The position numbers were made by a program, and so were the translations under genes. The notes beneath the pieces are model-generated. The model had not been told where the DNA came from. It saw only the letters and a program-made list of their open reading frames with translations, and made no database searches. Below are positions 3,001 to 60,455 of a stretch of 64,000 bases of DNA, piece by piece. This DNA comes from Coturnix japonica. Lineage: Eukaryota > Chordata > Aves > Galliformes > Phasianidae. The stretch is from the NCBI RefSeq assembly GCF_001577835.2, contig NC_029525.1, positions 18,102,731 through 18,166,730 of the forward strand. The letters are read 5' to 3'. The number at the start of each line of letters is the position of its first letter. The first letter of the stretch is position 1.

Positions 3001-3765
3001 AGAGCTGAGATCGCTGCCGAACGCGGCGCAGCGGGTGTCAATCACTGCGGAGCTGCTGGGTTTAGAAACTGGGCTGAGGGAGAAGGAGCCGCGTCTGCAA
3101 TTGGAGCATTGCGGTGTCAGAGCTCGGCGGGGTCTGGGCAGCTACAGAGCATCGTCCTACAGCGCCAATGATGGGAAGGCTGCGTGCAGTGCCTGCATCC
3201 GAGACAGCATCTCCAGAGTGGGTTACTCTTGGCCCTGCTAGAAAGCAGCTGGAGGGCTCTGTGGGCTCAGGGGGCGTCCCTGAGCCTGCAGTATGAGAAC
3301 ACAGCACAGCCAGACCCTGGAATGCGGGCACTGATGCTTTCAGGGCCTTCCTGCAATGGGTGTGTGAGGACTGGGCTGACAATAGCGGACATGGAGGGGT
3401 AGGATGGGCCAACCCAGCCCAGGCTGCAGCCACCTACATGGGAGTGCTGCTGGAACAGAGCCGTGAACCCCCTGCTGCCCACAGGGTACCCTGGCCATAA
3501 ATAAAAGAAAAAGCCACAACAACTGCCACCGAGCAGCTTCCAACCAGCAGTGGGAGCATGTTCATGGCAAACAAAAGGCCATTGAGGCACTGAGGCATTA
3601 CTGCTGGGTAGAGCAGCACAGCCATGCTGTAAAGTGGGCAGCCACAAACCAGCCCAGGGCAGCACCCCGCAGAGAAGGCACAGCTCTGTGGGGGTCCCAA
3701 ACCTGGCTGCAGTGCTGGAGGTGCTGCTGAGCGGCAGCACTGCCACTCCATCACTGAGCCCACAC
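1..3765. other. Intergenic or intronic sequence, no gene recognised
   Basis: Both strands were read. The open frames here are short, rich in Cys, Ser, Gly and Pro, and match no protein family I know, as expected for chance frames in GC-rich DNA. Visible features are a T-rich run near 1,040-1,062 and a mildly CpG-rich stretch near 2,740-3,060. In human, RASGRF1 lies beyond MIR184 on this side, but no RASGRF1 coding exon was recognised here. Confidence 0.6.
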
Positions 3766-3767
3766 AG

Positions 3768-4268
3768 CACGCAATGGGACACAGCACGCAATGGGACACA
3801 GCACGCAATGGGACACAGCATGCAATGGGACACAGCACGCAATGACAGAGCACGCAATGGACACAGCAAGCAATGGGACACAGATGCAATGGGAACACAG
3901 CATGGCAATGGGACATCTCGGCACGCCAATGGGTGGCGACTCGGACATGCTGAACCCAATGGGGACAACGGCATTGCAATGGGAGTCACAGCGATGGCAA
4001 TGGACGACGAGCACAGCAATTGGGAACACAGCACGCAATGGGACACAGCATGCAATGGGACACAGCATGCAATGGGACACAGCACGCAATGGGACACAGC
4101 ATGCAATGGGACACAGCCGCATGTTGGGACAAGACGCAGTGGGACACAGCACGCAGATGGGACCAGCACGCAATGGTACACAGCTATGACAATCGGGAGC
4201 CAAGCGACGCAAATGGGACCAGCATGGCAATGAGGACACACGGCGCACGCAATGGGACACAGCACATG
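3768..4268. repeat. 17-bp minisatellite, unit about GCAATGGGACACAGCAC
   Basis: A tandem array with a 17-bp unit (GCAATGGGACACAGCAC in one register, with a G/A-type variant giving AGCATGCAATGGG). Two nearly perfect blocks, about 3,772-3,840 and 4,026-4,120, flank a middle part where units are shortened, lengthened or scrambled. The long Cys/Val/Pro-rich frame on the minus strand across it is only the translated repeat. The middle part could be an old, decayed stretch or a long-read consensus error. Confidence 0.9.
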
Positions 4269-31373: not shown

Positions 31374-32936
31374 TCACAACGCGCTGCTCTGGCAGGAACC
31401 AGCCCCAGTGGGAACCCCCAGCTCCATGGGTGGCTGTGGCTCCTCTGTGCCCCCTATACACTGCCTGCCCCGCAGGGATGAGGCTGAACAGGAGAAGGAA
31501 CCCGTGGCTGGGGAGGGTGGCTCAGGCTCCGAGCTGCGCCCACAGGGACAGCCGCAGCGCCTCTGGAAGGGGATGGTGAAGAGCCCATAGGTGATGGGGT
31601 CCAGGCAGGCATTGAAGAGGCCAAAGATGAAGAGGATGTGGGAGAGGGACGGTGGGACCTTCTGCTGCATGACCCGTGGGCAGAACCAATACCACAGCCC
31701 CAGCAGATAGTAGGGGGTCCAGCAGAGGATGAAGGAGGAGACGATGACCAGGCTCATCTTCAGCGTGCGTAGCCGTGCCCGTGGGATGTTGTTCCCGGAG
31801 CACCGCAGTGCCACGTCCCTGGAGGAGACTGAAACGTGGCAATGGGACCAGTGAGCAGAGGGCTCGGCCACATAGGCAGGATGGGAACTCCCTCCCAAGG
31901 AGGGAGCGAGGACCTCCACCATCCTGGCCAAGGCTGCACACTGGTCTACCTGCAGCCCCCCCTGCCAGCCCCACTCACAGAGACTGGAGCCCATGCGCCG
32001 GGAGATCTCCAGCAGGATGCGCGTGTAGCAGCACACCATGATGAGCAGCGGCAGCAGGAAGAGGCAGGTGAAGCTCAGCATGTTGTAGAGGGTCTCGTGC
32101 CAGGGCTGCGGGAAGCTGCCGCGCGTGGTGCACTGCGTGAAGTTGTGCGGGGCGTGCAGGGTGACGGTGTGGAACAGGAACAGCTGGAAGCAAAGCAGAG
32201 GTGGGGAGGGGCTGAGACGGAGCTCCCCAGGGCGGCACCCAGGGGTCTCGGGTCTCACCAGAGCTGCACTGCCACCCCCGAGGAGTCCCTGGGCCCCCCC
32301 AGGAGCGCAGGGTGTGCGGGGCAGGGCAGGGCAGGGCAGGGCAGGCACCTGCGGCACAGCGAGCGCAGCGCTGAGCATCCACGCGGCACGGAGCATGGCG
32401 CGGATCCTGCGCCGAGCACGGGCGATGGCCAACGGGCGCAGGATGGCGGCCTGCCGGTCCAGGCTGATGACCACGGTGACGAAGGCGGAGGCGTACATGG
32501 CCAGCAGGCGCAGGTACATGAGGAGGCGGCAGGCCAGGTCACCCGCCCGCCACTGCAGCGTGATGTTCCAGATGGCGTCCAGCGGCATCACCACCACCGT
32601 CACCAGCAGGTCGGCCGCAGCCAGGTGCCGCAGCAGCAGGCGGATGTGGGAGCGCCCGCCGCCCCCCCGGCCCCCCGCCGCCCGCAGCACCGCCACGTTG
32701 CAGCCGGCCGAGAGCACAAAGAGCACGAGGGTGGCTGCCACGCGGGCCTGAGCGGCGGGCGAGAAGGTGGGGAGCAGCAGCGGCTCCTCGGCGCCCTCGG
32801 GACGGGGGCTCCAGGCACAGCCCTGCTTGGGGTGGGACACGCTGCTGGAGGGCTCCGTGCTGACGTTCCCCACCGCGGGGCCTGGGTCCAGCCAGCCCCC
32901 TCCTGCTGTGACAGGCAGATGGACAGAGCGACCCAT
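31374..32936 (-). CDS. GNRHR: Gonadotropin-releasing hormone receptor, tail-bearing non-mammalian type (three exons)
   Basis: Exons 32,936-32,349, 32,183-31,979 and 31,828-31,374 (phases 0 and 1) give 415 residues. It is a seven-span receptor. There is a glycosylation site N24-V-S and span 1 with N80. Asp109 in span 2 and Asp in the span 7 motif LDPITY give the Asp/Asp pair typical of non-mammalian GnRH receptors; mammalian type I has Asn/Asp. C136 starts span 3, and LDRQ at 159-162 is the DRY equivalent. NNIPRARLRTLKMSLVIVSS and FILCWTPYYLLGLWYWFCP are family hallmarks. A Ser/Pro-rich cytosolic tail of about 75 residues follows span 7; mammalian type I receptors lack such a tail, which allows desensitisation. 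The receptor binds GnRH on pituitary cells and signals through Gq. The start ATG is the first in frame. An exact paralog name (I or III) cannot be settled here. Confidence 0.95.
   Translation of the reverse strand: MGRSVHLPVTAGGGWLDPGPAVGNVSTEPSSSVSHPKQGCAWSPRPEGAEEPLLLPTFSPAAQARVAATLVLFVLSAGCNVAVLRAAGGRGGGGRSHIRLLLRHLAAADLLVTVVVMPLDAIWNITLQWRAGDLACRLLMYLRLLAMYASAFVTVVISLDRQAAILRPLAIARARRRIRAMLRAAWMLSAALAVPQVPALPCPALPRTPCAPGGAQGLLGGGSAALVRPETPGCRPGELRLSPSPPLLCFQLFLFHTVTLHAPHNFTQCTTRGSFPQPWHETLYNMLSFTCLFLLPLLIMVCCYTRILLEISRRMGSSLCEWGWQGGLQVDQCAALARMVEVLAPSLGGSSHPAYVAEPSAHWSHCHVSVSSRDVALRCSGNNIPRARLRTLKMSLVIVSSFILCWTPYYLLGLWYWFCPRVMQQKVPPSLSHILFIFGLFNACLDPITYGLFTIPFQRRCGCPCGRSSEPEPPSPATGSFSCSASSLRGRQCIGGTEEPQPPMELGVPTGAGSCQSSAL
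32319..32345. repeat. (GGGCA)n microsatellite in GNRHR intron 1
   Basis: Five copies of GGGCA in tandem immediately inside the intron next to the exon 1 donor. Confidence 0.9.
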
Positions 32937-32939
32937 GCA

Positions 32940-34385
32940 GGGCTGGGGGTACTCAGGGGACAGGGAGACCTACTGACCCACCCAGGAGCCCATGTCAGCT
33001 CACGGCATTCCCATCTGCAGCCCCCACACCCCGTAGAGCTACGGGATTCCGGCATCTCAGATAAGCACAGGAAAGTGGTCTCAGCCTTCCTTAGCCCCCC
33101 GCCTGCCCCAGGCCATTAATGCCACCCTGTCCACTCCACCCCAGAGCATCCCTCGTGGTCCTCCTACTCAGGGATAAGGGCGCCCCCCAGTGCGGGAGCC
33201 CCCAGGTGCAGCACCCCACGCACCCCTCACACCTCACCTGCAGCCGCCGCATCCTGCCCCGCTCCCGCGCCGAGCCGGGCCATGTCGGGGCTGTTCAAAC
33301 ACCACCCGCTCAGCGCTCCCACATTGGCACCAGCCGCATCCAGCCGGGACACACGCAGCAGGGCCGGCACTGCAGCACTCTGCTGCCTGCAGCCACCTCC
33401 GCTCCCGGCCGGCGCTCCGCCAGCCGCTGCCCGCGGGACGCCCTTGGCAGCTCAGGTTGCTCCTTGACGTAGCCAACCTGCGTGGAACGACTCCGTCCTT
33501 TATCCTGCATCACCCACACAGAGATGAGCGTGAGCAGCCTCATGCATACAGAGACATGTGCACACACACATACAGTGTATCTCCAGCCCGTGCCTGCACC
33601 CAGGAGCTGAGGGGTGCCCGGAGCTGGGACTACCGCTGCGGGGCGGCGTGTGGGGGGCACAGTGCTCGTTGTTTTGGGGCGTATCGTTCGTGGGGACTCA
33701 AAGATCCACAGATCCCATCCCCGCCTCTCAGCTGCTCCGCAGGATCACGGCTGCAGGCTGGGGGAGGGGAGCGCGGCTCTTTTGCATCTCAAAGGCTGCG
33801 TCTCCCAGGCGGAGGGCATTACCGTAATTAGCAAGTCACCTCAGTCATTTCACAGATAAGTGGGGCTCATTAGCCCTGCAGACCTCCTGCCCCAGGGATC
33901 CCGGTGCGCATTAGCATCTGCCCGCCAGCCCCGGGATGGGGCTCTGCACCGCTCGACACCCCGAGTCGCGGGGATCCCTTACGGCCCCGTACCCGCCCTC
34001 CAACCGGCACCCGCGGGGTCTCCACCCGGCCGAGTGCAGCCCCCAGGTGACCCTGCGACGTGGGGCCCTCCCAGGCTCCGGGCACGGGCTGCGGGCATCG
34101 CTCAGCTGTCACTGAGCCGCACCTGGGCAGAGCTGGTGAGCTCCATTCCCAGAGCTGGAGGTGTCTGTCCTGATACCTCCCGGCAATTGCTTTCCCAGAT
34201 GCCGTCCCCAGCCGCATGGTGCCGGCTCAGGGTCCCGCAGAGATGCTGGCTCTGTGTGACAGCCCTGGTGCGGTTTCCCCAGCTCTGCTGTCCTCTCAGC
34301 CCCACCGTGTTGACTGTGTACGTTGCACCCATCCCGCGCCCAGCAGCTGCTGCAGAAATGGCCACGTGATGATACTCAGAGTGAG
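32940..34385. other. GNRHR 5' flank and spacer to MESP1
   Basis: No coding exon was recognised. The receptor's promoter should lie at the left end of this stretch, but no convincing TATA box was found. Confidence 0.45.
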
Positions 34386-34393
34386 CAAAAGGG

Positions 34394-34399
34394 TTTATT
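34394..34399 (-). terminator. MESP1 polyadenylation signal
   Basis: TTTATT on the plus strand (AATAAA on the minus strand) within TATATAAATAAACCC, about 150 bp beyond the MESP1 stop codon. Confidence 0.75.
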
Positions 34400-34545: not shown

Positions 34546-35820
34546 TCAGTGCTGGAGCTGAGGTGGGAGCAGAGCTTCCAACAGGGAGAGCAGATCTGCT
34601 GAGATGTCCTATGGGGAAGAGAGAGTTGGTGAGGAAAGTACGGCCAAGGCAGGGATGTAGGGCAGGGCTGTGTGCGGGACAGCAGCATTTGGGGTTGGCA
34701 GAGCCCACCATCATGAGGGCACCAGCAGGATTCTGTGCCAGCTGACGGGAGCCCAACTGATGCACCGGGGAAGGTGGCAGCAGCTGAAGGCTCCAAGCAC
34801 CCCACATACATGTGCCACAGGATAGATGGGGGTCCTCTCCACTCCCAATCCCAGATCACATCACTGTGACCCCAACCCTACTTCCACACCACCACAGGAG
34901 CACTCCGAGCCCACCAGAGAGATTGTGCTCAGCCCCACATTAGTATCCCAGCTCCACGGCCGCACACATACCTGGGTGACCATCTCTGCATCCACAGAGT
35001 CTGGCAGCAGCAGCCCCCCGTCCAGGATGGGGTCACCGGGATGGTCCGGAGAGGTCCCTGCCACTGCGCAGTGAGGAGGGGATGGCCAGGAGGACACGCT
35101 GGAGGCCGGAGCACCGTGCAGTGCTGGGGGACTCCCCGCGGTGGGGCTGTAGGAGGGTGATGACCAGAGCCCCATCTCCATGTCAGGAACCCCGTGCAGC
35201 TCCGGGCAGGTCTCCATCACGGGGCCAGTAGAGAGCGGCCCCCAGGTCCCCATCCCCGCATCCAAAGCCCCGTGCAGATCCGGGGGGCTCCCCCAACCCT
35301 CCGAGCTGGGGGGCGAAGCGTCCCACGGGGCCGGGGGGCACAGCCGGGGGTGCGGGGGCTGGCAGCAGCCCAGGCCCTGGGGGCAGAGCGGGCAGTGGCG
35401 GGGGGCCGCCCCCCGGCGCAGCAGCAGCACCTCCTCGCTGAGGCCCAGCAGCGCCGAGAGGTGGGCGATGTAGCGGGTGGCGAGGCGCAGGGTCTCGATC
35501 TTGGTGAGGCTCTGCCCGGCGGGCGCCAGCGCGGGCGGCAGGTAGTGCCGCAGCCGGTGCATGGCCTGCGCCAGCCGCCGCATCCGCAGCTTCTCCCTCT
35601 CGCTGGCGCTCTGCCGTGGGCCCCCGGCCACCCCTGAGCCCCTCCTGCCCGCGGGACCGCGGCGCGGTGCCCTGGCAGGGGGTGAGAGGCCGCAGGAATC
35701 GGGTGACGGTGCCGGCGAGCTGCTGCTGTAGCCCTCGGGCTCGGGGACTGCGGGGAGACCCCAGTCGAGCGGTGGAGACGCGGTGCGCAGCGCGAGGCTG
35801 GGAGCTGCCGGGTGGGCCAT
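34546..35820 (-). CDS. MESP1: Mesoderm posterior bHLH transcription factor, minus-strand copy (two exons)
   Basis: Exon 1 35,820-34,972 and exon 2 34,608-34,546, phase 0, give 303 residues. The basic helix-loop-helix domain is at about residues 69-126 (RQSASEREKLRMRRLAQAMH, then LRHYLPPAL, LTKIETLRLATRYIAHLSAL). C143-P-L-C-P147 is the CPXCP motif unique to the MESP family. Exon 2 adds only DISADLLSLLEALLPPQLQH, acidic and hydrophobic, perhaps an activation motif. MESP factors act in early mesoderm, heart precursors and somite borders (chick cMeso genes). The symbol is given by position: as in human, the copy away from ANPEP on the minus strand is MESP1. The bHLH half has been homogenised with the other copy, so sequence cannot decide. 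A TATA-like CATAAAG lies 38-44 bp upstream of the ATG. Confidence 0.93.
35117..35658 (-). repeat. 542-bp inverted copy shared by the two MESP genes, arm A
   Basis: Aligns without gaps, in inverse orientation, to 38,548-39,089. I count about six differences in 542 bp, near 99% identity. The block covers the bHLH domain, the CPLCP motif and the following Pro-rich part, and ends abruptly on both sides. Third codon positions are as conserved as the others. Confidence 0.97.
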
Positions 35821-35857
35821 GGCTGAGGGCTGGGAGCCGCCGGCCCCGGAGCCCCGG

Positions 35858-35990
35858 CTTTATGCTGGGCCGGAGGTGTGAAGTGGCACCTCCATGGCCG
35901 GCGTCGGCAGCACTTCAAAGGCGGGGGCCGAGGGCAGCCATCCTTTGAACAGGAGGGTGAGGATTTTTACCCCGGCGGTGTGAGGCTGCT
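35858..35990 (-). promoter_or_regulatory. MESP1 promoter with TATA-like, T-box and TCF/LEF-like sites
   Basis: Reading toward MESP1: CATAAAG at 35,864-35,858; a near-palindromic pair of T-box half sites, AGGTGTGA (35,874-35,881) facing GGCACCT (35,885-35,891); TTCAAAG (35,914-35,920) and CTTTGAA (35,943-35,949), matching TCF/LEF cores; and another GGTGTGA (35,977-35,983). Tbx6 and Wnt/Notch inputs are known to control mouse Mesp2. The sites are seen directly, while their use is inferred. Confidence 0.6.
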
Positions 35991-35999
35991 CCGTGCTGC

Positions 36000-38240
36000 C
36001 CACCCCCCAGCACTGCCCGCACCCCAGCAGCAGTGCTGGCACAGGGCAGGAGGAGCCCCCCCCAGCAGCGATGCACACGGGGTGTCTGCAGTGCGGTCAG
36101 CTGCTGGGCCGGCAGCGGGCTGAGCACGGCGAGCTCTGCGCTGCAATGCATGCTGCAGACACTGGGGCTGGCGCATTTCTCTGTCTGCACCACGTCCCCA
36201 GTGCAGCAGTCCCAGAGCCCAGCTCTGCACTGTCCCGCCCCATCCTGATCCCCAGTGTGACCCGCAGGGCCAGGCTGTGTCCAGCACCATGCCCCCATCC
36301 CCGTCCTCAGCCGGGCAACGGGCTTTGCCCAGCTCCCCCCCACCCCCCGCAGTCCCGCTAATGGCATTTCACATGCTGGTACTAACGAGCCCTGACGCCT
36401 GCGGAGCCGCCTGGCTCTGCCTGCACCCGGTGCCCAAAGTCCGCTGCTGTGACTGACATCTCCCGCGCTGCAGCCCCGACTCCCACCTGCCCCCATTTTC
36501 CCCTCAGCTCTGACCCTATAACCCCGATCCCGATCTCCAGTCCCTGCAGCGGCACCCACGGGTGGCGCAGCGCCGCAGCCCCGGCCCCTCCTGGCACGCA
36601 CGGACCCGTCCCCACTGCAGGGGCTGGGAGGGGGCTGGGATGGGGCCCCCCGCCGCGTTCCCAGGCCCCGCACAGGAGTCGCGCGCTGCGGGTGTAAAGG
36701 TTTCCAGGGAAACCCGGCACCGCGAGGGAAGGAAAATAGATCAGGGAGATCCAGGAAGGCCGGGGGTGGAGCATCCCCGTAACAGCGCGGCCCCGCTGTG
36801 TGCTGGGACTCAGCCCCGCACGGCACGGGGTGAAGCACCGCTCACGGGGCGCAGAGCCGGGCCCAGGGCACGGAGCAGGACGTGGGGCGCGGAGCCGGCT
36901 GCAGTCACGGGGCGCTGCTCCCCGGGAAGTGCTGACCGTGGGGCTGCGTGAGCCACCCCTGCGTCAGCAACATCACATGGAAGTCATTCGGTTTTCCCCT
37001 CACACGCTGTGACACGGAGGTGGTGAAATCAGCCCTGACTACAGGTCACCCCCAGTGGGGCCGTGGCTCATCTGCGCTGCTCTCCACACGGGGCAGTGCC
37101 GGTACCGGACCTCCATCCCTGAGAAGTCACATCGCATGGATGTCGCTGAGCACTCAGCAGTGCCAACAAACAGGGCCCCCCCTGCGCACCTCCTGGCTGC
37201 CATTGAGCTCACGCTGTTCCCAGCACTGACGGAGCCACACACAGCCCGGGGCGCCCCGTGCTGGCAGGGCACATCGCTGCAGGGCACCCCAGCACCCAGC
37301 ACCAGCTCCCAGCTGTCTGCCACCACCCGCACTGCCCAGCTGGATGTCACAAGGACACCAGCCGCCATTTCCCACCCTGCGGATGCTACAGACACAGCAG
37401 ATATGCTGATGATTTCACAGAGGAAGAAGTGCCCCTGTGCTGTCCCACCCAAGGTCTGAGATCATTGGAACACTGTACAGCACTGTGCTCGGGCTCCTGA
37501 CGTCACCTGCGCACCCACAGGGCTGGAGCTGCAGGGGGACATGGGGATCTGCAGAGGATCCAGCCCAGAGGTGCTGTTTAGGGGTGCTCAGAGGGAGCTC
37601 TGCACCCACAGGTACAGCCCTGGGCACGGCCCCTTCCCCACATGTCCCCTTGTGCAGCTCCGGCGCTGCCTCCCCCCCCGTTCCCAGACCCCCTCCTGTG
37701 TCTCATTAGCTGACGAGCTCCCGGGTAATGAGTTTTGCGGCCCTGCTGGGCAGCCACTTCCCACCTCCCTCTGTGTTTAGACAAGTGCTGGAGTGCGGCC
37801 AGGGCCGGGGTCAGAGCAGAGCAGAGCCTGCAGCCCCCTGTCGGGGAGCCGGGATCCTCCACTCCCTCCAGGCTGCGCTATTGGAGTGCAGTGCAGGGCA
37901 CTGCGGTGAGGGTGCAGGGCCTGGGGTCTGCAGCAGCTGGGCAAGAAGCATGGCTCAGTGTACGTCCACACCCACACAGTGTGCCCAGCTGCACATAAGC
38001 ACCTCAGGGACACACAGCAGCATCCCACAGAGCCAGGGAGACCAAAGCAGGGGCACACAAAGGGCAGAGTGGTGTGGGGATGCCAGGATTGCTGGCAATG
38101 GAAGGTCAAGGCCTCGCTGCCCCATAGCGCCGTGCCACAGTGCAGGTGCTGGCAGGGCTGCTCAACACGTTAGCATCTCTCATGACCGTGTGAATTGGTC
38201 CTTGCACACTTCCCAGCACCGGGCAGTGCCAATTAAGGGC
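36000..38240. other. Shared intergenic region of the divergent MESP pair
   Basis: No exon was recognised. GC-rich with a CpG-dense core at about 36,550-36,950. Further T-box-like cores occur (GGTGTAAAG near 36,689, CCTCACACGC near 36,999, GTGACACGG near 37,009), together with GGGAAA words near 36,706. Enhancers controlling both genes are expected here, but none can be proven. Confidence 0.45.
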
Positions 38241-38255
38241 TGGAGGAGTCAGAAC

Positions 38256-38380
38256 TGACACCTCCGCAAATGGGTCCAGCTTTCCCAGGCTCCCGGCCCA
38301 GTTGCAGCCCACGCCATGTAGGTTTTGACACCTCCAGGTGGCCACAGAAGTGTCACCTCGCACCTCGGGCCCACATAAAG
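38256..38380 (+). promoter_or_regulatory. MESP2 promoter with T-box half sites and TATA-like box
   Basis: TGACACCT at 38,256-38,263 and again at 38,326-38,333, TGTCACCT at 38,351-38,358 and CGCACCT at 38,359-38,365 are T-box half-site variants. CATAAAG at 38,374-38,380 lies about 55 bp before the ATG and equals the box at the MESP1 promoter. Apart from these words the two promoters are not alike, so the shared sites are kept rather than copied. Confidence 0.6.
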
Positions 38381-38433
38381 CCAGGGCTGCCAAAGGACCC
38401 CCGGACGTGAGCAGCCCCAGAGCAGAACCCACC

Positions 38434-39621
38434 ATGGCCGGGTCCCCACTGCCGCCCCACGGCCTCCAGGCCCCAACAGCCGCCTCCCTGACCCCACCTG
38501 GGGAGCTCTGCAGGCCCGGCAGCGGGGCTGGGCTGAGGCGGTGCAGGGGTCCCACGGGCAGGAGGGGCTCAGGGGTGGCCGGGGGCCCACGGCAGAGCGC
38601 CAGCGAGAGGGAGAAGCTGCGGATGCGGCGGCTGGCGCAGGCCATGCACCGGCTGCGGCACTACCTGCCGCCCGCGCTGGCGCCCGCCGGGCAGAGCCTC
38701 ACCAAGATCGAGACCCTGCGCCTCGCCACCCGCTACATCGCCCACCTCTCGGCGCTGCTGGGCCTCAGCGAGGAGGTGCTGCTGCTGCGCCGGGGGGCGG
38801 CCCCCCGCCACTGCCCGCTCTGCCCCCAGGGCCTGGGCTGCTGCCAGCCCCCGCACCCCCGGCTGCGCCCCCCGGCCCCGAGGGACGCTTCGCCCCCCAG
38901 CTCGGAGGGTTGGGGGAGCCCCCCAGATCTGCACGGGGCTTTGGATGCAGGGATGGGGACGTGGGGGCCGCTCTCTACTGGCCCCGTGATGGAGACCTGC
39001 CCGGAGCTGCACGGGGTTCCTGACATGGAGATGGGGCTCTGGTCATCACCCTCCTACAGCCCCACCGCGGGGAGTCCCCCAGCACTGCATGGGACACCGG
39101 GCTCCATGTCACAGCCCTCACCATCATCGCTGTGCAGCATCAGAGCAGAGACCCCACTGGAGCCCCTCCAGAGATACATGACAGCCAAAGGCACCGGGAC
39201 AGAGCCCTCCTGCTGCATGGAGCCTGCAGTTCCTTCCCTGCATCCTGGGGTGAGAGCAAAGGCCATGGAACCCTCAGGACTCCCCACATGTGGCTCTCAG
39301 GTACACATGGGTGCATGTGGGCTGGCGGTAGAGTCTGGGATGTGGTGGAGTGGGATGGAGGATGCTCTTGCTGTGCACATGTGTGCCATGATGAGGGTGA
39401 CTGCATGGGGCGGGGGAACAGCACAAAGCACATGGAGCTGCAGGGCCAGCCCAGGATGCATGCACAGGGCCACAGCCCTGTCCCACACAGCCACCTGACA
39501 CGCAGCCTTTCTGCAGATCGGCAGCCCCCTGGACCTGGACATGTTCATCTCCTCCGACGTCCACGCGACCCCTGTCCTGCCTGGCTGCAGCCCCGCACGG
39601 TGCTGGGGGTGGTGGAGCTGA
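38434..39621 (+). CDS. MESP2: Mesoderm posterior bHLH transcription factor, plus-strand copy (two exons)
   Basis: Exon 1 38,434-39,300 and exon 2 39,517-39,621, phase 0, give 323 residues. The start is ACCATGG, a strong Kozak context. A short Pro-rich N-terminus of about 38 residues is unlike the other copy. The bHLH domain (about 52-109) and C127-P-L-C-P131 motif are identical in sequence to those of the minus-strand copy. Beyond the shared block the C-terminus differs fully and ends GCSPARCWGWWS in exon 2. MESP2 sets anterior somite identity and boundaries in mouse and human (spondylocostal dysostosis gene). The symbol is by position, next to ANPEP and on the plus strand as in human. Splice donor CAG|GTACAC and acceptor TTTCTGCAG are good. 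Confidence 0.93.
38548..39089 (+). repeat. 542-bp inverted copy shared by the two MESP genes, arm B
   Basis: Partner of 35,117-35,658. Only a few changes are visible, among them Arg/Cys and Arg/Trp replacements in the Pro-rich part after the CPLCP motif and one silent Pro codon change. Confidence 0.97.
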
Positions 39622-39696: not shown

Positions 39697-39702
39697 ATTA
39701 AA
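39697..39702 (+). terminator. MESP2 polyadenylation signal ATTAAA
   Basis: ATTAAA in CCCCATTAAAGCTGC, 76 bp after the MESP2 stop codon. A GTGTTGATG-type GT-rich stretch follows, as expected downstream of a cleavage site. Confidence 0.7.
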
Positions 39703-49538: not shown

Positions 49539-52500
49539 CTGGGGAGCAGTGTGTGCTGTGCCAGCCCCACACCCACATCCCAGCCCTGCTGGCAGTGCAC
49601 GCTGCATCCTCACCATGACAGCACCAACAGGCCAGAAAGGTTTCACTGTGTGCTATTAACCTTGACAGCGCAGCAACACCCACGTGCTGGTTGCTCCCTG
49701 AACCCCTCGATGGGGAGCACCCACCCTGCGCTCCCTCCCTGGGGACATGCAGGCTGAGAGCACCTGGGGAGGCCCCACTGCCCACAGCTCACTGGCTCCT
49801 GCAAGGCACCCGGAGCCCACCCTGCCCTGTACCCACACCTGGGCACCAAACCCCACATGCTGCCGCTCACCTCCGCCTTCTCCAGTTTGCTCTGTGCCTC
49901 CATCTGTGCCACGATCTCATTCATGCTGGTTTCCAGCACCATTCCACCAATCACCAGCTCCTGCAGGATATAGTGCATCTGCAAGGAGAGAGCAGCATGT
50001 GGCCCCAGCGTGCCACAGGGCAAACCTGGCCACTGCCCCATACCAGCCCCACACCTCCCCTGCACCCCAGGATGGAACAGAGACAGCACTGAGCAGCAAG
50101 CTGCCCCCCAGCACACACAGACACGGCCCTGGATGGGGTCTGGAACATGAGAACCAGAGTGCAGGTGGCTGTGCCACGCCACTGCAACACACCTTTGGTC
50201 ATGGCAGCAACACAGCACAGCTCTCTGCTGAGCCAGCATTTTCCAACAGCGCCCCTGCACAGATAACTGATTTATGGGTTTCTGGTTGCTTCCATGATAA
50301 AGGTTGTTACTGGAAGATGGTTGTTACGATATCGGTTTATGGCCCATGATAGCTGACTGTGCTTGTAAATACTGCACGACAAACATCACCAGAGCAATGC
50401 AGTGAGAAATAAAACGGTGCCACGAACCTCTCCCTGAGCAGGGGAAAACCCAGCAGTGAGCTCAGCGCCCGCCCCGCGCTGCCCATCAGGGATGCAGGAA
50501 ACCGGGCTCCTTTTGGACCTGGCATCAGCCCAGCTTGGACCCGACCCAGCCGGGCAGCGGTCCCGAGAAACCTTTGTTTTGCAAGGAACAATCCGTGTCC
50601 TCTCTGGGACCCTGCAGCTGCTGAGCAAAACACGCTGCGCTCTGAGGCAGAGCCACGGGACGGCACCCAGCAGCGCGCACTGCGCGGGGCACAGCACGGC
50701 CACACATCATGGCTGTGGGGCTGGGTGTGAGCACTGCATGTATGAGAGCCGGGGGGCTGAGCCGGGAGTCAACCCAGCACAAACCCTCCTTTCTCCCTCC
50801 TCTGGGTCTCCGAATCCTCACCAACACAGAGCAGAGGAGGGCGGCTCACGCTGCTCACAGCGCCAGGTCCCGGCCCCATAGGAGCACACTGTGCCCGATG
50901 CACAGCAGCAGACAGGGCTGTCACCCCCACCCCCACGTGTTCCTCCTTCCTCACCGCTCTCCCCCCTCCTTTCCCTTCCTTTGATAAGAGCACTTTTCCT
51001 GACAAGATAACCGGCCTGGCGACATCTCTGCAGCTGGGAGCCAACCCAACGGCACGGTCAGAGTAACCAGGTTTGAGCGGCCTGAGCTGCCCTGAGCACT
51101 GGAGCAAACCTCCACGTCCATTTCTCTGTCCCAGAGCTCAGAAGTTGGGATCCAAAACAGGAAGGGAACGTTTCCAGCACCGCTGATTTTCCCCCTTGCT
51201 TTTTGCTGGCAGCAGCTCCTTATCGCCCTGCACTGCACTGTGCACAGCCCCGCTATGTGCAGCTCCACCCGGGACATCAAAGCAGGATGTTTCCTGCCCC
51301 AGGTTCTGTCCCCCCAAGAGGAAGCGCAGCGGCTGCGCTCAAACCAAAGTTTATCAAACACCGTGTTCCAAACGCTTCCATTGTTCCTGTTTATTTCCCC
51401 CTTTAACTCCATGTTGTGCTGCGCTGCAGCGAGGGGCAAAGCGCTCACACAGAAACATGGAGCTGCATCCAAGCTCAGAGCCAGGAGCTGCTCCCAGGGC
51501 TCAGGTGGGGAACAGCGCGGGATGAGGAGCGTGATGCACAGCTCGCGCTGGGACGAGCCCACGCGGAACACGGATCGCACAGACCGTGCCGCAGTGCCGG
51601 TACAATGAGAGGCTCGTAGTGCCGTACATGGCCGCAGTGCCGGTACATGGGCCGCACGCTCCGCCGGTGACATTGAGCTGTAGTGGCCGTACATGAAGCT
51701 GCTAGTGCCGGTGACAGTGGAGCCGTAGTAACCGGTACATGTGAGGCCATAGTGCCGGGTGACACTTGAGCCGTAGTGCCGGTACATGAGCCGTAGTGCC
51801 GGTACATGAACGCGTAGTGCGTACCATGGGCCGCGGAGTCCGGTATCAGTGGCCGCAGTGCCGGTACATTGGGCGCAGTGCCGTACATGAGCTGTAGTGC
51901 CGGACAATGAGCCGTAGTACCCCGGTACCTGAGCATAGTGCCGGTACATGAGCCGTAGTGCCGGTACATGAGCCGTAGTGCCGGTACATGAGCCGTAGTG
52001 CCGGTACATGAGCCGTAGTGCCGGTACATGAGCGTAGTACCGAGGTGACTAGTGAGGCCGTAGTGGCGGGTTACATGAGCCGTTAGTGCCGGTACATGAG
52101 TCCGCAGTGCCGTACATGATGCTGTAGTGGCCCGGTACATGAGGCCAGTAGTAGCCGGTAACATGAGCCGCAAAGTGCTGGTTTACATGAGCCGTAGTGC
52201 CTGGTAGCATGAGCTGTAAGTGCCGGCTACAGTGAGCTCATAGTGCCGGTAATGAGGCTGTAGTGCGGTACATTGAGGCCGTAAGAGCTGGCTACATTGA
52301 GCCGCAGTGCCGGGTAAACATGAGCTGTAGTTGGCGCGTAACATTGAGCTTGTAGTGCCGGTACAATGAAGCCGCAGTGCCGGTACATGAGCCGCACAGA
52401 CTGCGTGGTACAGTGAAGCCGCAGTGCTGTAAACATGAGCCGTAAGTGCCGGTGACATTGAGCTGTAGTGCCGGTACAAATGACCCATAGTGCCGGTAAC

Positions 52501-53401
52501 AACTGAGGCTGTAGTGCGCGGTACATGAGCCGTAGAGCTTGGTACATGAAAGTGCCGGCAGTGGCGGTACATGAGCTGTAGTGGTACCGGTACAGTGAGC
52601 TGTAGTGCCGGTACATGAAGCCGCAGTGCGGTACAAGAAGCCGAGTGCCGTACATGAGGCCCGCAGTGCTGGTACATGAGCGTAGTGCTGGTAGATGAGC
52701 GTGTAGTGCCGGTAACATGAGCAATAGTGCCGGTACAACATGAGCTGTAGTGCCGGTAACATGAGCCGTAAGAAGCTGGTACATGCAAGCGTCAGGTGCC
52801 GGTAAATGAGCTGTAGTGCCGTGTACATAGTGAGCTGTAGTTGCGGTAACTGAAGGCCGCAGTGCCGGTACAGTGAGCGCAAGTTGCCGGTACATGGAGC
52901 CGCAGTGCTGGGTACAATGAGGCCGTAGCTGCGTAGCATGAGCGTAGTGCCGGGTATCATGAGCTGTATAGTGCCGGTACATGAGCCCGTAGTGGGCCGG
53001 TACATTGTAAACACTCTAATGCGTAAGTTATTCTATTGACCCTGAGCCCCGTAGTGCGGTACATGAGCTGTAGTATGGCCGGTACATGAGCTGTTAGGTG
53101 CGGTACATAGCCGCGCGCTCGTGTGCCCACACACACACACACACACCTGCCGCTTTTACCATACGCCCGCGGGGTGCGGTTCAGGCCCGCACAGCTCACA
53201 GACCCCCCCGCACCGCCGGGAGCTGCGGACCCGCCCGTGGCGCGTGGAACGTGTCGCGCAGGATCCGCCGCTGCGTCTCTCGGTCCTGCGGGCACCGAAC
53301 GGACCCGGCCCCGCGCAGCCCCCGACCTGCACCAGGTGCCGGTAGCAGCGGACGAGCCGCGTGTTGCCGTGGTTGTTGAACACCGGGACGGCGCTGATCA
53401 T
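49408..53401 (-). CDS. AP3S2: Adaptor-related protein complex 3 sigma-2 subunit; only first and last two exons found
   Basis: First exon 53,401 down to 53,327 (or 53,333) encodes MISAVPVFNNHGNTRLVRCY and a few more residues. The penultimate exon, 49,978-49,871, encodes MHYILQELVIGGMVLETSMN and EIVAQMEAQSKLEKAE. The last exon, about 49,538-49,408, encodes GGLSAAPSCTVSAMKN, then INLPEIPRNINIGDIGIKVP and NLSQFM. These match human AP3S2, a 193-residue sigma subunit of the AP-3 coat that carries cargo from endosomes to lysosomes and related organelles. About 80 central residues (roughly 24-103) have no recognisable exon in the 3.3 kb between. The first exon is unusually diverged for this conserved family. 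At the start of the last exon the run of nine G (plus strand 49,531-49,539) leaves the wrong frame after the AG acceptor, where seven or ten would fit, so a homopolymer length error is likely. Confidence 0.85.
49871..49978 (-). CDS. AP3S2: AP3S2 penultimate coding exon
   Basis: 108 bp, phase 0 on both sides, with acceptor TCTCCTTGCAG and donor GAG|GTGAGC. It encodes 36 residues from MHYILQEL to KLEKAE, 29 of which equal human AP3S2. Confidence 0.95.
49985..51590 (-). other. AP3S2 intron sequence, no exon recognised
   Basis: Searched by eye on the minus strand for the conserved words NFLEGG, IYRHYATLYFVF, CVDSSESELG and ETLDKCFENVCELDLIFH. None is present. The sequence is ordinary GC-rich DNA. 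Confidence 0.6.
51600..53110. repeat. 20-bp minisatellite, unit GTGCCGGTACATGAGCCGTA, about 1.5 kb
   Basis: About 70 or more tandem copies. A clean block of four to five perfect units lies at about 51,938-52,030. Outside it most copies carry one-base insertions or losses (GCCGGTAACATGAG, GCCGGGTACAATG), as left by noisy long-read consensus, or reflect real divergence. On the minus strand the unit reads CTCATGTACCGGCACTACGG, i.e. L-M-Y-R-H-Y-G in one frame. Since 20 is not a multiple of three, the frame rotates and the array cannot encode a simple repeat protein. Confidence 0.95.
53128..53151. repeat. (CA)n microsatellite
   Basis: About eleven to twelve CA units immediately right of the minisatellite and 180 bp from AP3S2 exon 1. 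Confidence 0.9.
53327..53401 (-). CDS. AP3S2: AP3S2 first coding exon
   Basis: ATG at 53,401-53,399. It encodes 23-25 residues with the sigma-subunit hallmark VFNNHG and LVR-Y. Two possible donors exist: CAG|GTCGGG (exon end 53,327) and CTG|GTGCAG (exon end 53,333). The second would equal the usual 69-bp exon of the family, while the first is the better splice signal. Confidence 0.85.
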
Positions 53402-60104: not shown

Positions 60105-60455
60105 CATGGGAGGAGATGAAAAGCAAGAGAGAAAGCAAGCAAGCAAAGGACAGAGGTTTGGAATACAGAGGGAGATTAGGAGATAGATGAAAGAGAAAGG
60201 AGAGAGATAAGAGGGAGGCAGAGGACAGATCCACAGCGCCCAGATAGGGGTTGCCAGGGAAACGGGAAGGATGAGAGTGGCGGAGAGAAGAAGAGAGAGA
60301 AGAGAGGAGGAGAAGAGAGGAGGAGAAGAGAGGAGGAGAAGAGAGGAGGAGAAGAGAGGAGGAGAAGAGAGGAGGAGAAGAGAGGAGAGGAGAGGAGAGG
60401 AGGAGAGGAGAGGAGAGGAGAGGAGAGAGAGAGGAAGAGGAGAGGAGAGGGTGTG
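60105..60455. repeat. Purine-rich tract with (GGAGAAGAGA)n tandem repeat
   Basis: From 60,105 the plus strand is mostly A and G. At about 60,302-60,375 a 15-bp unit, AGGAGGAGAAGAGAG in one register, repeats about five times, followed by GGAGAGGAGAGGAG repeats to about 60,450. It is a low-complexity homopurine tract. Its Ser/Leu-rich minus-strand translation is not a gene. Confidence 0.9.

Follow-up and report, generated by a model that had tools for sequence, protein, structure and literature searches.

The window, a 64,000-nucleotide stretch of the Coturnix japonica genome, contains two complete MESP-type genes, each of two exons, which are divergently transcribed with the left gene on the minus strand and the right gene on the plus strand. 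Coding exon 1 of the left gene (34972-35820) includes an HLH domain (Pfam PF00010, E 1.3e-12) and is joined through a GT-AG intron to coding exon 2 (34546-34608), which ends DISADLLSLLEALLPPQLQH; the complete frame encodes 303 aa, with an AATAAA signal, also on the minus strand, starting downstream at 34399. The right gene has a frame of 323 aa, with coding exon 1 at 38434-39300 (HLH domain PF00010, E 1.7e-12), coding exon 2 at 39517-39621, and a downstream ATTAAA at 39697.

Neighbors and identity of the two MESP genes

Four genes near the pair were recognized by Pfam matches: an ankyrin-repeat gene at 25.6-27.1 kb, read as ANKRD34C from its sequence and position; a p24/GOLD gene at 28.2-29.6 kb, read as TMED3; a rhodopsin-type receptor gene on the minus strand (31377-32969), read as a GnRH receptor; and, on the minus strand, a peptidase M1 gene (40.4-45.6 kb), read as ANPEP. 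The ANPEP frame is similar to chicken aminopeptidase N, though seemingly not the same, as would suit a relative of the chicken. The left MESP gene (minus), the right MESP gene (plus) and the peptidase M1 gene (minus) follow one another in this order, so that a head-to-head MESP pair lies beside ANPEP. The therian gene order is MESP1, MESP2, ANPEP (PMC10445033), and the human and mouse MESP pairs are also head to head (PMC4506290, PMC8791502), with a spacing of approximately 25 kb in human and 16 kb in mouse (PMC4506290). The receptor gene adjoins the left MESP gene where therians carry WDR93. In a second type of gene order the right-hand neighbors of WDR93 are MINAR1, MTHFS, and BCL2A1 (PMC10445033), and the placement of the receptor gene beside the left MESP gene is consistent with these published alternative neighbors.

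Position suggests that the left gene is MESP1 and the right gene MESP2, at least in their 3' halves. The last exon agrees weakly with this assignment: similarity to mouse MESP1 is seen at the left C-terminus (SADLLSLLEALLPPQ / SSDMLALLETWTPPQ, z 4.3; against human MESP1, z 0.5) and is to be taken as a lead, the mammalian reference sequences being provisional. The right C-terminus resembles none of the mammalian MESP C-termini with which it was compared. For the N-termini, the left gene against human MESP1 gives z 3.4, and the remaining comparisons with mammalian proteins are near chance, a result that favors neither an inverted nor an uninverted loop between the genes. A crossover between the near-identical arms described below would swap the 5' halves of the genes and leave the 3' halves in place; position and last exon therefore inform on the 3' halves alone.

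The pair is judged to be old from therian synteny together with the divergence of the promoters, N-termini, and last exons of the two genes; the same evidence indicates, indirectly, that the duplication is older than the similarity of the arms. The age of the pair had been asserted in a preliminary description of this DNA, and the location of the right copy beside ANPEP and the mammalian head-to-head pairs bear it out. That description also held that trees built from the bHLH domain cannot tell which copy is MESP1. A published survey of chicken bHLH proteins agrees, in that neither Mesp1 nor Mesp2 shares a clade with just one human sequence and both are marked n/m (PMC2862960), as expected if the domain has been homogenized within lineages; the statement goes too far, however, if it is taken to leave the copies without identity, since synteny and, weakly, the C-terminal exon still suggest one.

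The near-identical inverted block and its flanks

The two genes share a block of 542 bp, in which 35,117-35,658 (left arm, within exon 1 of the minus-strand gene and covering the bHLH domain with the adjoining downstream part) aligns without gaps to the reverse complement of 38,548-39,089 (right arm, within exon 1 of the plus-strand gene). Exactly six of the 542 positions differ (98.9% identity), at 35245, 35257, 35281, 35325, 35340, and 35652 of the left arm, and the block is 75% GC. The arms are in a common reading frame, at offsets from the start codons of 162 (left) and 114 (right). Three of the differences are synonymous (codons at 35283, 35259, and 35247 of the left arm) and three are nonsynonymous (A/T, C/R, and W/R), corresponding to a dS of 0.021 and a dN of 0.008 by NG86. 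The longest run free of differences, 311 bp, spans the bHLH domain and is the same in both genes; identity also continues through the Pro/Ser/Gly-rich part downstream of the domain. The arms are inverted and separated by a loop of 2,889 bp (35659-38547), which holds both promoters and both of the unrelated N-terminal coding parts. These measurements confirm two features of the preliminary description, a gapless inverted block of 542 bp with approximately 99% identity and about six differences, and an inverted repeat with a 2.9-kb loop.

Outside the 542-bp core the similarity falls away differently on the two sides. In ungapped 50-bp steps, identity is 92-100% within the block; 5' of it the values are 10-34%, and 3' of it they decay over a short distance. 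At the 5' border identity rises from at most 17 of 50 to 49-50 of 50, and at the 3' border it declines from 46 through 24 and 20 to 10 of 50. The BLAST match is longer than the core, extending over 35,100-35,658 and 38,548-39,106 (559 bp, 11 differences, E = 0.0); the additional edge (35100-35116, minus strand; counterpart 39090-39106), which lies 3' of the core in the left gene, differs at 5 of 17 positions. A repeat search of the window reports the MESP inverted repeat as 564 bp at 98%, and BLAST within the 64-kb window finds no second inverted match to the block region. Copies of the bHLH region are absent from the bacterial and archaeal genome contigs and the viral contigs that were searched. 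Other repeats in the window are a large degenerate minisatellite at 51588-53005 (unit of approximately 20 bp, GCCGTAGTGCCGGTACATGA; about 65 copies), a tandem repeat of 17 bp at 3762-4265 (about 28 degenerate copies, ACACAGCACGCAATGGG), and a purine-rich tandem repeat at 60274-60450 (GGAGA/AGAGAGGAGGAGA).

The flanks had been described as unrelated between the two genes. This holds for the N-terminal coding parts (z -0.2) and for exon 2 with the 3' UTR (z 1.1), while exon 1 downstream of the block retains weak similarity (z 2.7), but it does not hold for the promoters. The 200 bp upstream of the start codons give z 8.6, with none of 300 shuffles scoring as high, and the 400 bp upstream give z 7.4; the proximal promoters are thus homologous over approximately 180 bp upstream of the start codons, yet diverged. 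Both carry the motif CCCA(G)CATAAAGCC(G/A)GGGCT, with the TATA-like CATAAAGCC box within 35850-35869 in the left promoter (35821-36001, minus strand) and within 38369-38388 in the right promoter (38237-38413, plus strand). The left promoter also has a T-box-like site, AGGTGTGAA, at 35874-35882, the only exact occurrence in the window, and the right promoter has a one-mismatch copy, AGGTGTCAA, at 38325-38333. Mouse Mesp2 is under the control of TBX6 according to work cited in PMC4221472; one-mismatch sites are barely more common across the window than chance would give (20 against 14.3), so a function for the T-box-like site here is a guess. As homologous DNA of the pair that escaped recent overwriting, the promoters serve as an internal yardstick and show that such DNA has drifted far.

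Over 62 aa of the bHLH domain the two copies in the window are 100% identical to each other and 76-81% identical to provisional mammalian MESP reference sequences; by these figures the copies are closer to each other than to any mammalian orthologue. The mouse pair of this provisional set is 91.9% identical over the same 62 aa, against a published figure of 93%. Human MESP1 shares 93.5% of residues with mouse MESP1 and 95.2% with mouse MESP2. The mammalian set is without clear clustering by species, so recurrent conversion in mammals is no more than a possibility. No printed MESP peptide sequences were found in the papers searched.

Origin of the block

Near-identity that includes synonymous sites and is bounded by diverged sequence is the pattern expected of gene conversion, and ectopic (interlocus) conversion between MESP1 and MESP2 is the most likely explanation of the block. 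The strongest evidence comes from the four-fold degenerate sites, 116 of 119 of which are identical where a fraction of 0.39 is expected at saturation, as computed from the base composition of the four-fold sites of the block (P about 5e-43); even a four-fold distance as low as 0.1 gives P 0.004. Without exchange, an old pair would have saturated its synonymous sites, so purifying selection at the protein level is insufficient to account for this identity. Base composition has to be considered in the bHLH half (35341-35658 and 38548-38865), where GC3 is 0.97 (103 of 106 codons in each gene) and slows visible divergence, an effect that the saturation test takes into account through the base composition of the block.

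GC3 of the block also exceeds that of the remainder of each gene (left, 0.906 against 0.726, Fisher p 7e-5; right, 0.894 against 0.743, p 6e-4), as has been reported for converted mammalian gene pairs (PMC2720389). This sign of conversion is nonspecific, since first exons in CpG islands are GC-rich too; CpG-island-like stretches at 35301-35950 and 38501-38900 overlap the arms, and the raised GC3 could stem from such first-exon composition instead of biased conversion.

The main competitor of conversion is an artefact of assembly or polishing, in which the block of one copy overwrote that of the other or reads of both were merged. A repeat of 542 bp with 98.9% identity and 75% GC exceeds short-read length and is hard to sequence, and short-read polishing can homogenize the copies of such a repeat. 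Against this, the copies differ at six positions, three of them protein-changing, neither gene is truncated or out of frame, each has its splice and polyA signals, and the window contains no N; the unique flanks and the six differences speak against a plain collapse, and the bHLH domains of the mouse pair are likewise almost identical (93%; PMC4506290). An artefact is improbable on this evidence. Still less credit attaches to a recent partial duplication, by which one of the genes would be young and consist of an inverted duplicate of the block joined to other sequence. The single inverted match and its sharp borders are what such an event would leave, but promoter, N-terminus, intron, and last exon are particular to each gene, an older similarity connects the two promoters, and therians have the same head-to-head pair beside ANPEP; an in-frame, in-place replacement within an older pair would in effect be conversion. 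Preservation of the bHLH half by purifying selection alone, with no exchange, draws on the strong conservation of the domain and the coincidence of the 311-bp run with it, and is rejected because the four-fold sites contradict it and identity persists in the Pro/Ser/Gly-rich part past the domain, barring an unsuspected constraint on the DNA itself.

If conversion is accepted, the block can be dated roughly. The 3 synonymous differences in 147 sites correspond to a Ks of about 0.02 (Poisson interval 0.004-0.060). Under assumed rates of 1.2-2.0e-9 substitutions per site per year, conversion would have taken place some 5-8 million years ago, with an interval of about 1-25 million years. The overwriting had been called very recent; synonymous near-identity in an otherwise diverged old pair fits conversion, and the time is better given as a few million years with a wide interval.

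The conversion would have copied approximately 540-560 bp of exon 1, comprising the bHLH domain and the part following it, from one gene so as to overwrite its counterpart in the other, probably a few million years ago. Repair of a double-strand break within or close to one exon 1 may have taken the inverted copy, 2.9 kb distant, as template and given no crossover. Held similar by protein constraint, the bHLH exon would have provided sufficient homology, and the unrelated N-termini and introns would have offered too little, which would set the borders of the block. Birds lack PRDM9, and their recombination is concentrated at CpG islands; both arms here overlap stretches of CpG-island-like composition. 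In zebra finch, CpG islands are rich in non-crossovers, as the lack of PRDM9 would predict, and the mean non-crossover tract is approximately 32 bp, with a rare one exceeding 4 kb and GC favored in 59% (PMC12047795); in flycatcher, crossovers are densest in promoters and CpG islands (PMC4878770).

The six differences show some clustering (p 0.04 for the largest gap; p 0.02 for five of the six within 96 bp), which might point to several events but is too weak to be relied on and is confounded by bHLH constraint. Given the average avian tract of approximately 32 bp and the five differences within 96 bp, several partly overlapping conversion events are as likely as one. A bolder proposal, possible though on balance doubtful, is that MESP bHLH halves have been homogenized repeatedly, in birds and in mammals independently of each other, so that conversion keeps these halves alike as the promoters, N-termini, and C-termini drift apart, and that here the promoter-bearing loop may flip between the C-terminal halves.

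MESP1 and MESP2 function in early heart mesoderm and in the formation of somite boundaries; that they are partly redundant is well studied. Should conversion keep their DNA-binding halves alike, trees of that region mislead on orthology, and part of the redundancy would be upheld by recombination and not by selection alone. Probes, primers, guide RNAs, and short-read counts that target the block would not distinguish the two genes.

Comparable gene pairs

One comparison is with the same genes in mouse and human, which are head to head with almost identical bHLH domains (93% of amino acids in mouse) and differ in their other parts (PMC4506290, PMC8791502); those pairs are about 16-25 kb apart, whereas 2.9 kb separates the arms here. 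Mesp2 is largely replaceable by the Mesp1 coding sequence (PMC4506290, PMC8791502). Gene conversion in mouse or human Mesp is not reported in the papers found, and no report of MESP gene conversion or concerted evolution was met in the literature searched, whose reach excluded most subscription journals; the sole searched paper that contains both MESP names and "gene conversion" deals with the loss of WDR93 (PMC10445033).

For one inverted pair of developmental regulators, the Dlx genes of the annelid Capitella teleta, conversion limited to the DNA-binding part has already been published, and the MESP case appears to be unreported in the searched literature. The Capitella Dlx genes are, like MESP, closely linked inverted developmental regulators with near-identity confined to the DNA-binding region and the rest diverged, for which conversion has been invoked (PMC3199776). 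They differ from the present pair in being tail to tail, in the domain (a homeobox), in a tract of approximately 150 bp, in belonging to an invertebrate, and in having been tested with GENECONV against related species (PMC3199776). The same paper also names engrailed/invected and inverted pairs such as Hsp70 (PMC3199776).

Among mammals, BMP8A/B, DDX19A/B, and TUBG1/2 resemble the MESP genes as linked two-copy pairs with raised GC3, not significantly so for BMP8A/B (Carson and Scherer, 2009; PMC2720389), and have evolved in concert, in a mosaic fashion, for more than 100 million years (PMC2720389). BMP8A/B are inverted, as are the MESP genes here (PMC2720389). MESP does not appear in the text of Carson and Scherer (2009; PMC2720389); their screen demanded a similar intron between paralogues, so we infer that a conversion confined to exon 1, as in MESP, would escape it. 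The Drosophila Hsp70 genes are, like the MESP pair, inverted, closely linked copies homogenized by conversion (Bettencourt and Feder, 2002, as cited in PMC2871787 and PMC3199776); as represented in those citations, Hsp70 conversion involves the entire transcribed sequence, whereas the MESP block makes up about half of the coding sequence.
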